Positions 6,623 to 37,450 of a stretch of DNA of 37,450 nucleotides are shown here, one piece after another. How positions within the stretch are numbered: the stretch's first letter is position 1; every line of letters starts with the position of its first letter. The notes below the pieces were generated by a model. It ran no database searches and was not told where the DNA came from. It saw only the letters and a program-made list of their open reading frames with translations. The DNA lies in assembly GCF_900167125.1 (NCBI RefSeq), contig NZ_FUYC01000020.1, forward strand, positions 1 through 37,450, read 5' to 3'. The position numbers and the translations under genes are program-made. The DNA is from Paucidesulfovibrio gracilis DSM 16080. GTDB taxonomy: Bacteria > Desulfobacterota > Desulfovibrionia > Desulfovibrionales > Desulfovibrionaceae.

Positions 6623-6997
6623 GCCTTCGGCGACCAGGGGGAAAACCTTTCTGAAGAAAGGTTCTTCCCCCTGGACCCCCTTTCCAAAGACTTTTACCGG
6701 CTCCAGGCCTGCGGCCTGTCGCGGGTAGCCCCCCCCTTTCTTACATGATCTATTTGTTTCCCCCTCCCAAAGCAAAAGAACGGCCGAAGCCGTTCTTTTG
6801 CTTTGGGGCGCACCGTTGCCGCGAGTTTTGGGAGGGCGGAGCCATCCCGGAAATCGCGGCAACATGAGATCACGCCGCCGCGCTGCTGCGTCTGACCACC
6901 CCCGGACGTCCTCTCAGCCCACGCCCCCGGCCGCGCGCAAGCGCGAGACCGGTAAACGGGGGTCCAGGGGGCCGCGGGCCTCCTGGTCGCCGAAGGC
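6623..6997 (-). repeat. Hairpin-rich TIR element, copy A
   Basis: A 375-bp dispersed element. Its ends are perfect 16-bp inverted repeats: GCCTTCGGCGACCAGG at 6623-6638 and its reverse complement at 6982-6997. Inside are three hairpins. One is near 6635-6682, with CTTTCTGAAGAAAG at its tip. One is a perfect 16-bp stem at 6769-6784/6789-6804 with a CGAA loop, extended by CC/GG. The third has GTTGCCGCGA-type arms at about 6818-6865. The same sequence recurs inverted at 27566-27945, and its beginning recurs at 37380. It fills the space between two convergent genes. No protein is convincingly encoded. It is a MITE-like or structured-RNA repeat by shape; mobility is inferred. Confidence 0.8.
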
Positions 6998-7062
6998 ATG
7001 CTTTTTTCTCTCGTTCTCCTGGTGCGGACGTCCGGAAGAACGCCACAACATACTATCGTATT

Positions 7063-8235
7063 TTAAATAAAGCACTCAATTTCGTCCACGGGCTGACTGA
7101 GCAGGAATTTTCCATCCATGATCCAGCGTTTCAGCTCATTGGCCACTTCCAGGGACATTGGGTGTGATGTAACTGGAATAGATGGAATTTTTCGTCCATC
7201 CACCACAATTTCCCCGGACATGAGTTCTTCGAGTGTCACGTGTCCGAGCACGCGAGGCACCCCATTGGGATAATCATATCCGTAGTCGCGCACGGGCATT
7301 TGGATATCCGCGTTGGACACGCCGGTATGCCAGGCGATTTCCTCGTTGAGGATGGGGATGGGGATTCCCACGCCCACATTGAGGGAGGAACCGTATCCCA
7401 CCACGGACACGCCACGCAGGTAGCGGGCGTTCATTTGTTTCATATCGCCCTTGACCATCAGTGTTCCGGCCGGAGTGGTCGGAATGCCGTATTCATTGCG
7501 CGGCGGTTTGGGATTATGCTGTGTGCCTGCGCCGATCACGTATCCGATGCCGCCGGCCAGGAAGATGCGTGTTCCCATGCCAATGGTCTTGAACAGCGGA
7601 TCGTTGAACAGGGGCGAGAGTGCGCCCGAGGTGGCGAAGTTGGCGTTGCGCGACTTGGGCTTGAGCGGTCCCATGTATGTATAAATGGTCCGGCTGGTCA
7701 GGTTCACGGCGCAATTGTAGTTTTGGTAGCAGTTGCGCGGGTTGATCAGCCAGGCATTGGGCAAATCGGCCAGGGTCACGTCTTTATCGAGCTTACGGCG
7801 CGGATAGCAATCCGTACCATAGGCGCGTGCCTTGAGGTGTACGGCCTTACCGCGCACAAGGTCTTCGATGACGTGTCCGCCGCCGTAGACGAAGCGGCCG
7901 GGGTGGACCTTGTTGAGCGGGTCATCCTCGGCAGGCTCTGTAGCGCCCAGGAAGGCATCCACAGCGGCCAAACCGCTATAGGCCGGGACCGTATTCATCC
8001 AAAGCTCGGAAACTTTCATCACGGGCGGTTCCTGCCCGATATTGAAGAGCATGCCCGAGGAGCACATGGTGGAGAACGTGCCGGTGGTGACAACGTCCAC
8101 TTCCTTGGCTGCCTTGACCTTGCCCAGACGACGGACTTCCGCGGTCATTTCCTCGGCATTGAGCACCACCGCCTTGCCCTTACGGATGCGCTCGTTGATT
8201 TCCTGAATGGTTTTATTGACCTGATGCGTGGCCAC
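7063..8235 (-). CDS. Homocysteine biosynthesis protein (DUF39/COG1900)
   Basis: About 390 aa. The start is GTG at 8235, because GGAGG lies about 6 nt upstream and no ATG fits; the open frame beyond it is only the shadow of dnaA. It matches the DUF39 family, which with a ferredoxin-like partner forms homocysteine from aspartate semialdehyde and a sulfur donor in methanogens and sulfate reducers. Conserved-looking cysteines include FSTMCSSGMLFN and NPRNCYQNYNC, and glycine-rich segments (GGIGYVIGAGTQHNPKPP; GVSVVGYGSSLNVGVGIP) dominate the middle. No CBS domains are attached. It is divergent from dnaA, with terminators between. The ferredoxin partner is not in the window. Confidence 0.88.
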   Translation of the reverse strand: MATHQVNKTIQEINERIRKGKAVVLNAEEMTAEVRRLGKVKAAKEVDVVTTGTFSTMCSSGMLFNIGQEPPVMKVSELWMNTVPAYSGLAAVDAFLGATEPAEDDPLNKVHPGRFVYGGGHVIEDLVRGKAVHLKARAYGTDCYPRRKLDKDVTLADLPNAWLINPRNCYQNYNCAVNLTSRTIYTYMGPLKPKSRNANFATSGALSPLFNDPLFKTIGMGTRIFLAGGIGYVIGAGTQHNPKPPRNEYGIPTTPAGTLMVKGDMKQMNARYLRGVSVVGYGSSLNVGVGIPIPILNEEIAWHTGVSNADIQMPVRDYGYDYPNGVPRVLGHVTLEELMSGEIVVDGRKIPSIPVTSHPMSLEVANELKRWIMDGKFLLSQPVDEIECFI

Positions 8236-9909: not shown

Positions 9910-13475
<3,566 letters not shown>

Positions 13476-26620: not shown

Positions 26621-27487
26621 CTAAAATCCGAGCATCTGCTTGAGCCGGGTGATGCGCCGCCGCGAAATGGGCAGCTCGATGCGCGTTTTCCCGGCCGTGC
26701 GCAGCATGAAATTACTCCCCGGCAAACTGGCGATTTCCGTGACCATGTCCATGTTCACCAAATATTTGCGGTGGACGCGGAAAAAGCGGTGCGGCTCCAG
26801 ACGTTCTTCCAGATGCTTGAGCCGGTGGGAGGTCAAAAATTTTTGACCGCTCGTGTGGACATACGAATAGTCCTCGAATGCTTCCACAAAAATGATTTGG
26901 GTATAGGGGATCAGAATGGTCTTGCCGTCCTGGGTCACGGCCAGCTTTTCGATTTCCGGGCTGGCTTTGTGGGTGGAATCCCAGGCCTGCTTGAGCGCGG
27001 CCAGAAAGCTGTCCTGCTCGTCTTCGTTCAAGGCTAGCCGGAGCGTTTGTTCGTCCGTGGCCTCGCCCGCCTCGGCATCGCGCCAGTCCGCAGGTTCAGG
27101 AACCTCGCGGTAGCGCGCCTTGAAGTCCCGGAGCTTCTCCAGGGTGGTTTCCAGGCGCTGTTCGTCCGCAGGCCAGACAATATAATCCAGCGCCCCCAGC
27201 TCAAAGGCGGCATAGGCGCGGCTTTCGTCCGCAGCAAGCAGCACCAGGGCGGGACGCTCCGTGCGGCCGCGTAAAGTGCGCGCCAGCTCCACTCCCTCGG
27301 ATTCCGCCTCCAGATCCACACCCACGAAGATCACGCCATAGCCCACATGGTCCAGCAGCTCCAATCCCTCCGCAGCGGACACCGCCTCACCCAATACCTG
27401 CAAAAACGGCACGGATGCGAGCATAGAACGCAGCGCCGAACGCACGTTCGCATCCGGATGAAGCAATAGGGTTTTGAGTCGGGACAT
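26621..27487 (-). CDS. LytTR-family regulator with degenerate receiver
   Basis: 288 aa. Residues 1-125 have a CheY-like fold, but the usual phosphorylation landmarks are altered. The third strand reads GVIFVGVDLEAESEG, so the expected Asp position is Val or Gly. The conserved Lys-Pro of the last strand reads Trp-Pro (DYIVWPAD). Residues 185-285 are a LytTR DNA-binding domain (VEAFEDYSYVHTSGQKFLTSHRLKHLEERL...FFRVHRKYLVNMDMV...LPISRRR). It is probably a transcription regulator that does not use classic phosphorylation. There is no neighbouring kinase. GGAG is about 10 nt before the start. Confidence 0.88.
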   Translation of the reverse strand: MSRLKTLLLHPDANVRSALRSMLASVPFLQVLGEAVSAAEGLELLDHVGYGVIFVGVDLEAESEGVELARTLRGRTERPALVLLAADESRAYAAFELGALDYIVWPADEQRLETTLEKLRDFKARYREVPEPADWRDAEAGEATDEQTLRLALNEDEQDSFLAALKQAWDSTHKASPEIEKLAVTQDGKTILIPYTQIIFVEAFEDYSYVHTSGQKFLTSHRLKHLEERLEPHRFFRVHRKYLVNMDMVTEIASLPGSNFMLRTAGKTRIELPISRRRITRLKQMLGF

Positions 27488-27565: not shown

Positions 27566-27945
27566 GCCTCCGGCGGCCAGGAGGCCCGCGGCCCCCTGGA
27601 CTCCCGTTTACCGGTCTCGCGCTTGCGCGCGGCCGGGGGCGTGGGGTGGGATGGCGTATGAGGCGTGGTCAGGCGGAGCAGCGCGGCGGCGTGATCGCAT
27701 GTTGCCGCGATTTCCGGGATGGCTCCGCCCTCCCGAAACTCGCGGCAACGGTGCGCCCCCCAAAGCAAAAGAACGGCTTTGGCCGTTCCTTTGCTTTGGG
27801 GGAGGGGGAAACAAATAGATCATGTAAGAAAGGGGGGGCTACCCGCGACAGGCCGCAGGCCTGGAGCCGATAAAAGTCTTTGGAAAGGGGGGCCAGGGGG
27901 AAGAACCTTTCTTCAGAAAGGTTTTCCCCCTGGTCGCCGAAGGCG
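27566..27945 (+). repeat. Hairpin-rich TIR element, copy B
   Basis: The same element as 6623-6997, inverted, 380 bp long. The ends GCCTCCGGCGGCCAGG (27566-27581) and CCTGGTCGCCGAAGGC (27930-27945) are inverted repeats with two mismatches. The hairpins are GTTGCCGCGA/TCGCGGCAAC (27701-27749), AAAGCAAAAGAACGGC with its partner (27763-27798), and CCAGGGGGA...TTCCCCCTGG (27893-27933). Compared with copy A, the stem arms are nearly unchanged while the loop of the second hairpin differs (TTTG against CGAA). It lies upstream of the LytTR gene and downstream of the epimerase-like gene. Confidence 0.8.
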
Positions 27946-28299
27946 GTTCAAGCAAGCCTGGGACAACCAAGGTGAGGGGGGAAAACGAGATGAGGCTCCC
28001 GAAGGAGCCTCAGAAATTCTCAAAGAAGGAAGTGTGAAGGATGCTATAAATATAGCAAGCAGCGTGCCAGAGTAGTGTTTTTGATAAAATAAAAAATATA
28101 TTGTTTTATTTCAGATTGTTGTGTCTTGAATAATGGTGACTTGTTCATGAGCCGGGCCAAGCGGACGGTATAGTTTTTTGCACTCTGCCCTGGCAGACGC
28201 GGAATGCGATCAAATTTTTGAACCCGGCGGCCTTGGCCGCGACGGGACCAGGGAGAATCGTTCCCAAGGGGGCAAAAAGCCCCCGGGAGCACTGTGTGG
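27946..28299. other. Intergenic region with hairpins, no gene seen
   Basis: It holds a perfect 9-bp stem TGAGGCTCC-CGAA-GGAGCCTCA (27991-28012), an AT-rich middle (28060-28130), and GGGGGC/GCCCCC around an A-rich loop (28268-28284) just past the end of the leftward gene. No reading frame with a ribosome site was accepted. The AT-rich middle might hold a promoter or small RNA. Confidence 0.35.
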
Positions 28300-37379: not shown

Positions 37380-37450
37380 GCCTCCGGCGGCCAGGAGGCC
37401 CGTGGCCCCCTGGACTCCCATTTACCGCCCGCGCTTTGCGCGGCCGGGAT
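37380..37450 (+). repeat. Hairpin-rich TIR element, copy C (cut by window edge)
   Basis: The first 71 bp match copy B closely from its terminal repeat GCCTCCGGCGGCCAGG, through the CCCCCTGGACTCCC stretch, into the GCGCGGCCGGG region. It has the same orientation as copy B. The rest lies outside the window. The 150 bp before it, upstream of the 37228 gene, show no other feature. Confidence 0.75.

Follow-up and report, generated by a model that had tools for sequence, protein, structure and literature searches.

A family of paired inverted half-elements shared by Desulfobacterota and Ruminococcus, with end hairpins that may fold as intrastrand triple helices

Results

The window, by which we mean the whole stretch of 37,450 nucleotides analysed here from Paucidesulfovibrio gracilis DSM 16080, carries two whole copies and one end of a repeated element. 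Copy A (6623-7001, plus strand) has a hexapeptide transferase gene on its left and an HcyBio gene on its right, and begins 6 bases past a stop codon. Its terminal inverted repeats (TIRs), at 6623-6638 and 6982-6997, are perfect over 16 bp (19 nt at 95%), and likeness among most copies extends to about 7001. Copy B (27566-27944, minus strand) is 94% identical to copy A; its TIRs (GCCTTCGGCGACCAGG at the 5' end, CCTGGCCGCCGGAGGC at the 3' end) have two mismatched positions, and one pair of the main stem is G-T. Copy C (37380-37450, minus strand) is an RE end only, cut by the contig end, because the window is one whole contig. An earlier note on this DNA had placed copy A at 6623-6997 with perfect 16-bp TIRs, an inverted copy B at about 27566-27945 and the start of copy C at 37380; a repeat search bore out all three, setting the end of copy B at 27944 and revealing copy C to be only an end that stops at 37450. 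In the region 27566-28030, copy B is flanked on one side by a hairpin that looks by eye like a terminator and on the other by the start of a gene for a LytTR response regulator (26621-27487, minus strand).

Comparison of copy A with its own genome yielded at least 58 matches at no fewer than 40 places, in line with the earlier expectation of many genomic copies. Both figures are lower bounds since 40 of 91 first-look candidates were scored; the 40 places are the 58 matches minus 16 self-palindrome rows, with two split pairs joined by hand. Near-complete copies span ~300-385 bp, the unit being about 375 bp, and R1, the model of one half of the element described below, finds further halves in this genome beyond the copy-A matches. 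For 30 of the 40 counted places a contig end is no more than 150 bases away, and the element is probably a main cause of the fragmentation of this draft. Because some contig ends carry the same flank twice (L008/L009 and L021/L022 have identical flanks, each pair being the two sides of one unassembled copy), real copies are fewer than places. Five places (L005, L010, L013, L035 and L036) show a mosaic arrangement on the right flank, with another short repeat of about AGCCYTGCRGGGCCGCCGGAGGC after the RE end; in some of them this repeat is complete.

On the plus strand, the order of parts in copy A is as follows. The LE hairpin H1 (CCAGGGGGAAAACCTTTC..GAAAGGTTCTTCCCCCTGG, 6634-6674), which contains a purine tract (6637-6645) and belongs to the half modelled as R1, is followed at 6676-6695 by a segment, CCCCCTTTCCAAAGACTTTT, that comes close to a parallel complement of the H1 rising arm and that we propose as a third strand, H. 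The interior contains a small hairpin (CAGGCCTGCGGCCTG, 6704-6718) with one pair changed on both sides, a 19-bp hairpin (6766-6807, arms 6766-6784 and 6789-6807) in which 6 of 19 pairs are double-changed among copies in the same genome, a hairpin with nearly invariant pairs (GTTGCCGCGA..TCGCGGCAAC, 6815-6863) and one whose pairs are invariant (GGCCGCGCGCAAGCGCGAGACCGG, 6929-6952). The RE hairpin H2 (CCAGGGGGCC..GGGCCTCCTGG, 6964-6986) occurs in 7 of 22 aligned own copies as the variant CCAAAGGGTC..GGACCCTTTGG, with three pairs changed on both sides. The fold of copy A is not a product of chance, because its folding energy lies far from that of 100 dinucleotide shuffles (z = -10.7 as RNA, -12.0 as DNA). 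The internal stem, previously described as 18 bp and perfect, is indeed perfect but is 19 bp long. The reported change of its loop from CGAA to TTTG is a strand artefact: since copy B is inverted, TTTG belongs to the other strand and the loop on the element strand is CAAA, so that the true change is of one base.

Covariation was assessed in an alignment of 22 of the 40 own places, which excluded partial copies as well as L008 and L021, whose flanks are repeated in L009 and L022. Ten of 90 stem pairs have changed on both sides. Double-changed cells number 52, compared with 15.9 in shuffles, a value reached by none of 500 shuffles, and sliding the partners by 1-3 columns lowers the proportion of paired cells from 96.4% to 41-54%. 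The excess is less marked for the number of double-changed pairs (10 vs 7.5, with 2 of 500 shuffles as high), and further pair types show no excess over shuffles among these 22 copies (18 vs 20.8). The covariation that had been suggested as a check is therefore present, and it supports the earlier proposal that structure is under selection; the reason then given, the loop comparison, was wrong, having been made across strands.

The element belongs to a wider family. Copy-A DNA matches 6 of 20 genomes searched, its own included, and R1, a covariance model built on the half-element (~62 nt, a hairpin and its conserved tail), has matches in 12 of the 20, again including its own, 11 of them from the same family of bacteria. 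Under stricter filters, a sample of 297 genomes from the phylum gave R1 matches in 29, the own genome among them, across nine families, and 398 genomes of the phylum of Ruminococcus gave matches in 4, two of them with a single weak match. In the latter phylum, Ruminococcus YE71, one of the four, holds at least 150 R1 matches and R. flavefaciens XPD3002 holds 109, counts that may include a second match on the opposite strand of one hairpin. Across 13 genomes of the YE71 genus, with at most 150 matches scored in each, the numbers were 148, 0, 0, 17, 128, 14, 80, 48, 4, 7, 47, 7 and 8. An exact 29-mer of the hairpin occurs in 34 stretches, 29 from the metagenome-assembled genome (MAG) Desulfovibrio STF2_139 and 5 from Ruminococcus (four genomes, two of them without a MAG label), and copies in YE71 and in G001, a genome of the window's genus, share 59 bases without change. 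This 59-mer had no match in the phage and plasmid collections. Pattern scans of IMG/VR returned one contig for each of three patterns (L123, L278 and L279) and none for a fourth; in L123, one solo half (7017-7080), with no partner within 4 kb, directly follows the stop codon of a gene with Mu-transposase C-terminal and integrase-core domains, and a second lies at 11818-11876.

A complete member of the family measures about 170-400 bp and consists of two inverted halves around a variable interior with hairpins of its own, in the order [outer arm] H1 - linker - H ... interior ... H' - linker - H2 [outer arm], which can be drawn as a four-way junction. An intact half comprises a purine-rich hairpin, a linker of ~3 nt (mostly GGA, AGA, GAA or AAA) and the third segment H. 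Elements in other genera have a different interior and the same end architecture; in the species of the window, the full motif is kept by the LE half only. The YE71 copies read mostly have one end of type 1 (CCTTTCTGAAGAAAGG) and the other of type 2 (CCCTTTTGAAAAAGGG), in either order, and in one (L155) both ends are of type 1. The short copies, five of the 21 examined in YE71 (L157, L167, L168, L171 and L172), lie inside locus-specific inverted repeats of 40-100 bp, which outscore all 420 mismatched flank pairs; the flanks of the other 16 do not. In Desulfovibrio sp. STF2_139 (G002), of the window's genus, elements form tandem arrays with a period of 206-208 bp, the units of which keep both ends and have a shorter interior. 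At L066-L069, L098 and L110, arrays in this genome have a similar linker at different loci. The short hairpins that the earlier note mentioned between Desulfovibrio genes are present, but as whole elements of this same family.

Rfam returned no family at gathering score in the window, and for seven related loci only sub-threshold matches, nearly all of them to generic hairpins such as miRNA precursors. We found no description of the family in the open-access literature, as distinct from supplements and subscription papers, where an earlier description is possible; the main texts of PMC2267715, PMC1590033, PMC3733652 and PMC3116915 contain no occurrence of Desulfovibrio, Ruminococcus or triplex. 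Within Rfam, the phage and plasmid collections and the open literature, the element is undescribed, as had been suspected. The repeat family appears to be new, and its general kind, MITE-like, is known.

Insertion could be read directly from comparisons within the genus of YE71 (G020). Between mutL and miaA (assigned by Pfam), the aligned flanks are 399 bp apart in YE71, where an element is present, and 38 bp and 46 bp apart in the relatives G032 and G029. In G028 (L256, C10) the same interval holds a different insert, about 510 bp of other sequence. In the leader of a gene for an FGGY kinase, the YE71 element lies between the -10 box and the ribosome site; G032, G028 and G029 have no element there and a different upstream gene order, the promoter and ribosome site on either side of the insertion are common to YE71 and G032, and the 35 bp of contig available for this leader in G026 contain no element. 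For an S1-domain gene, the upstream gap measures 484 bp in YE71, element included, and 135 bp in G032. A further YE71 copy in the compared stretch has no syntenic counterpart. Since three YE71 copies are missing at the corresponding places in relatives, copies insert, and mobility in this one Ruminococcus genus is well supported by these sequence comparisons.

In the window's genus, we infer mobility. The left neighbour of copy A, the hexapeptide transferase gene, is directly followed by another gene in G001, and in G002 an element of the G002 type lies about 30 bp past its counterpart. The counterpart of the HcyBio gene is on another contig in both genomes, which puts copy A at a synteny break. 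The target-site duplications and matching transposase that the earlier note had recommended looking for did not emerge: among 12 own copies, of which 11 were usable and some share a flank, no target-site duplication was found, and no k-mer of 2-9 at small offsets was clearly more frequent in own-copy flanks than in shuffled ones. The Y1 transposase domain (PF01797) had no match in the own genome (G000), G001 or G002, in a search that matched 11 of 20 genomes. Among the loci read, we saw no coding copy or related autonomous transposon, the search of whole genomes being confined to PF01797. The widely spaced halves of L258 in YE71 were considered as an autonomous copy and rejected, as they are separate short elements.

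The most distinctive feature of the family is the relationship between each hairpin and the H segment beside it. H approximates the complement of the rising arm read in the same direction, so that G5A3-C2-T3C faces C5T3-C2-A3G, and it varies in step with the hairpin. In genome G007, hairpin and H read CTTTTTG/CAAAAAC at L080 and CTTTTTTG/CAAAAAAC at L049; other in-step variants are TCTTGAAAGA/AGAACTTTCT (L045), GAGGGGGGA/CTCCCCCCT (L050) and GGGGGAGGAA/CCCCCTCCTC (L191). A run-length test was applied to the 186 of 361 halves that fit a strict pattern, 86 of them unique within their genome. In these 86, the T-run and A-run have equal length in 75 (rho 0.883), the junction lengths are equal in 82 (rho 0.94) and in 80 the runs are followed by a complementary base. 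Neither correlation was reached by any of 5000 permutations, including those in which H was shuffled only within genomes, and with one vote per genome or record the T-run and A-run agree in 21 of 26 and the junctions in 24 of 26. The antiparallel alternative, in which the base before the T-run (always C) is compared with the base after the A-run, fits only 57 of the 86. The rule has exceptions. Eleven unique halves break the equality of T-run and A-run, six of them with T4 and A6; G-run and C-run lengths agree only roughly (rho 0.463, reached by 17 of 2000 within-genome permutations); the G that a strict rule would place in H at the junction Cs is instead C (or CCT); and the match continues over the hairpin loop, where triads cannot form.

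Further tests addressed the purine tract and the specificity of the rule. In a fixed register (249 halves parsed, 122 unique), purine-tract triads exceed shuffles with z 8.5, compared with -0.1 for an antiparallel control, and the excess one base out of register is also high (z 6.1). With a floating register (269 of 361 parsed, 77 unique), the score was 7.14 vs 6.59, with 0 of 1000 permutations as high. Shuffles are also exceeded at the apex under each of the four transformations (z 11.4 for the complement, 9.4 for the reverse, 5.1 for the reverse complement and 2.8 for identity), a result to be expected from relatedness and from the symmetry of the hairpin itself. When family hairpins were compared with other hairpins from the same DNA, a parallel-complement score of at least 10 was obtained by 94 of 173 and 3 of 316, respectively; scored as identity, reverse and reverse complement, 1, 10 and 3 of the 173 family hairpins and 0, 2 and 1 of the 316 controls reached this value. 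By reading, two of the three high-scoring controls lie within family elements (L054, a diverged end, and L107, an interior). In a one-strand control with no bulge allowed the means are close (5.92 for the family vs 5.59), with 15 of 120 family hairpins scoring 10-11 and no control above 9. The third strand, the insertion polymorphism and the occurrence in a second phylum were all absent from the earlier note.

Discussion

Alternate-strand triplexes, in which a third strand passes from the purines of one strand to those of the other, are known as a class, and the open-access papers found to mention them appear not to concern bacterial repeats. As read from the sequences, the parallel-complement rule is the one that an intrastrand alternate-strand triplex would follow. 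A third strand, in either of the standard triplex motifs, has the same base as the strand to which it runs antiparallel (orientations as given in the main text of PMC4666352); the observed rule therefore combines the pyrimidine motif, on rising-arm purines, with the purine motif, on falling-arm purines. H would lie first on the rising-arm purines, forming C.G-C and T.A-T triads, cross over at the junction Cs and then lie on the falling-arm purines, forming A.A-T and G.G-C triads. In single-stranded or extruded DNA, each intact end would fold into such a triplex hairpin, which a transposase or other DNA-structure enzyme, supplied in trans, may recognise, and this recognition would let copies spread without target duplication. 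Our main reading is thus that copies A, B and C belong to a non-autonomous MITE-like family whose ends are selected to fold as intrastrand triplexes, are recognised by an enzyme in trans and spread without target duplication, to which we give a probability slightly better than even (about 0.55). Covariation by itself makes the triplex a strong hypothesis; triplex formation, DNA rather than RNA as the acting form and the enzyme in trans are our inferences. The fuller picture, of a natural, selected alternate-strand DNA triplex with four canonical triads along one hairpin, in a mobile family of two phyla and recognised by an unknown transposition machine, is more tentative, and we hold it at a little under even odds.

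The closest known relative in form is the intrastrand triplex motif BoxC/PIT/TM_ECO, treated in the main text of Holder et al. 2015 (PMC4666352). According to that text, BoxC/PIT resembles our element in being of high copy number, in having three consecutive blocks with a 3-nt second loop and in a copy number that is very uneven between close relatives, and it has been linked to genome rearrangement, copy A lying at a synteny break. In copy A, the purine, pyrimidine and Hoogsteen blocks (GGGGGAA / TTCCCCC / CCCCCTT) stand in a row on one strand, within the 6-15 nt block range. The purine and pyrimidine blocks are 21 nt apart, a spacing outside the ITxF loop range of 1-6 nt used in the BoxC/PIT search as the main text of PMC4666352 describes it. 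The two also differ in sequence, in the arrangement of the present element as two inverted halves bounding a 170-400-bp unit, and in that its rule runs past the homopurine tract onto the other strand, unlike that of BoxC/PIT in the same text. Neither Desulfovibrio nor Ruminococcus occurs in that main text, as distinct from its database and supplements.

Like bacterial MITEs, the element is short, non-coding and intergenic, with inverted ends, many copies and insertion polymorphism: it has TIRs, no coding gene and a length under about 600 bp, and it is present or absent at the same site between mutL and miaA, in the FGGY leader and at the S1 gene in the genus of YE71. It differs from MITEs in that no target duplication was found at own copies and no parent transposon among the loci read, and in its end hairpins with a covarying third strand. 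In IS200/IS605 and the palindrome-ended elements derived from them, the ends are recognised as folded single-strand hairpins and no target duplication is made. For our element likewise no target duplication was found at own copies, and recognition of its ends as single-strand hairpins is what we propose; it differs in its inverted symmetric halves and in that no Y1 enzyme was found in its own genome.

How the H segment bears on other explanations can be judged from its two possible partners, its own hairpin and the opposite half. An ordinary cruciform-forming MITE, in which hairpins flank a central Watson-Crick stem of H and H' and H is kept only as a stem arm, would explain why H and H' are able to pair in many members and why halves often come in inverted pairs. 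We nevertheless consider it unlikely. In the YE71 copies read, each H matches its own hairpin, which it appears to follow rather than its partner, and in L123 a half stands solo. In the window's species, H is near-invariant across the 22 own copies even though the RE has lost most of H', including the AAAAGTCTTT part that would pair with H, so pairing with the other half is not why H is kept there. Hairpin-templated mutation and inter-copy gene conversion, acting without selection, appear most improbable as the source of both stem and third-strand covariation. Quasi-palindrome correction, together with conversion among many copies, can make stems match, and copies are indeed alike within a genome, but template switching gives inverted rather than parallel-complement copies, which leaves H following the rising arm unexplained.

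Two further readings concern function and mode of movement. An RNA element, that is, an intergenic or 3'-end structure with a role in ending or stabilising transcripts and kept by RNA-level selection, would be consistent with the covarying stems, with the position of copy A just past a stop codon and with the neighbouring genes, which are convergent for 11, tandem for 13 and divergent for none of 24 classified copies. (The survey, by simple ORF calling, began with 31 copies and dropped the 7 for which one of the flanking genes could not be called; for copy A it got the left gene wrong but not its orientation.) The lack of copies between divergent genes also fits tolerance of insertions near gene ends. 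Terminator function is weakened because several copies (L027, L029, L066 and L074) start just past what appears by eye to be an ordinary hairpin-plus-T terminator; moreover, most copies have no strong T run after their hairpins, again by eye, one copy is in a 5' leader, and the purine-motif part is reported in the main text of PMC4666352 not to form in RNA, making this reading decidedly unlikely. That the family is of REP/BIME/REPIN type, with a RAYT-type Y1 transposase as its mover, seems to us very doubtful. Like such repeats, the element forms high-copy intergenic palindromes without a target duplication being found, and the tandem arrays of 206-208-bp units in G002 recall BIMEs; its units of ~170-400 bp with paired inverted halves are, however, much longer than and unlike 20-40-bp REPs, and PF01797 was not matched in the three genomes tested of the window's genus, in a search positive in 11 of 20 genomes.

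If the triplex reading holds, its interest extends beyond this locus. Pattern searches have listed bacterial triple-helix motifs, for which a function is difficult to demonstrate; concerted change of third strand and hairpin, across two phyla and 26 genomes or records, would provide an evolutionary test of the triplex that is independent of energetics. The family would likewise point to a mobile element moved by an enzyme as yet unknown, and, with 30 of 40 places near contig ends, the element helps to explain breaks in draft genomes of this kind. Finally, in YE71, at L258:2450-2900 and L259:400-850, we observed small sequences with GCCTTAGCTTCGCAC or similar nested in the H1 hairpin apex of some copies.
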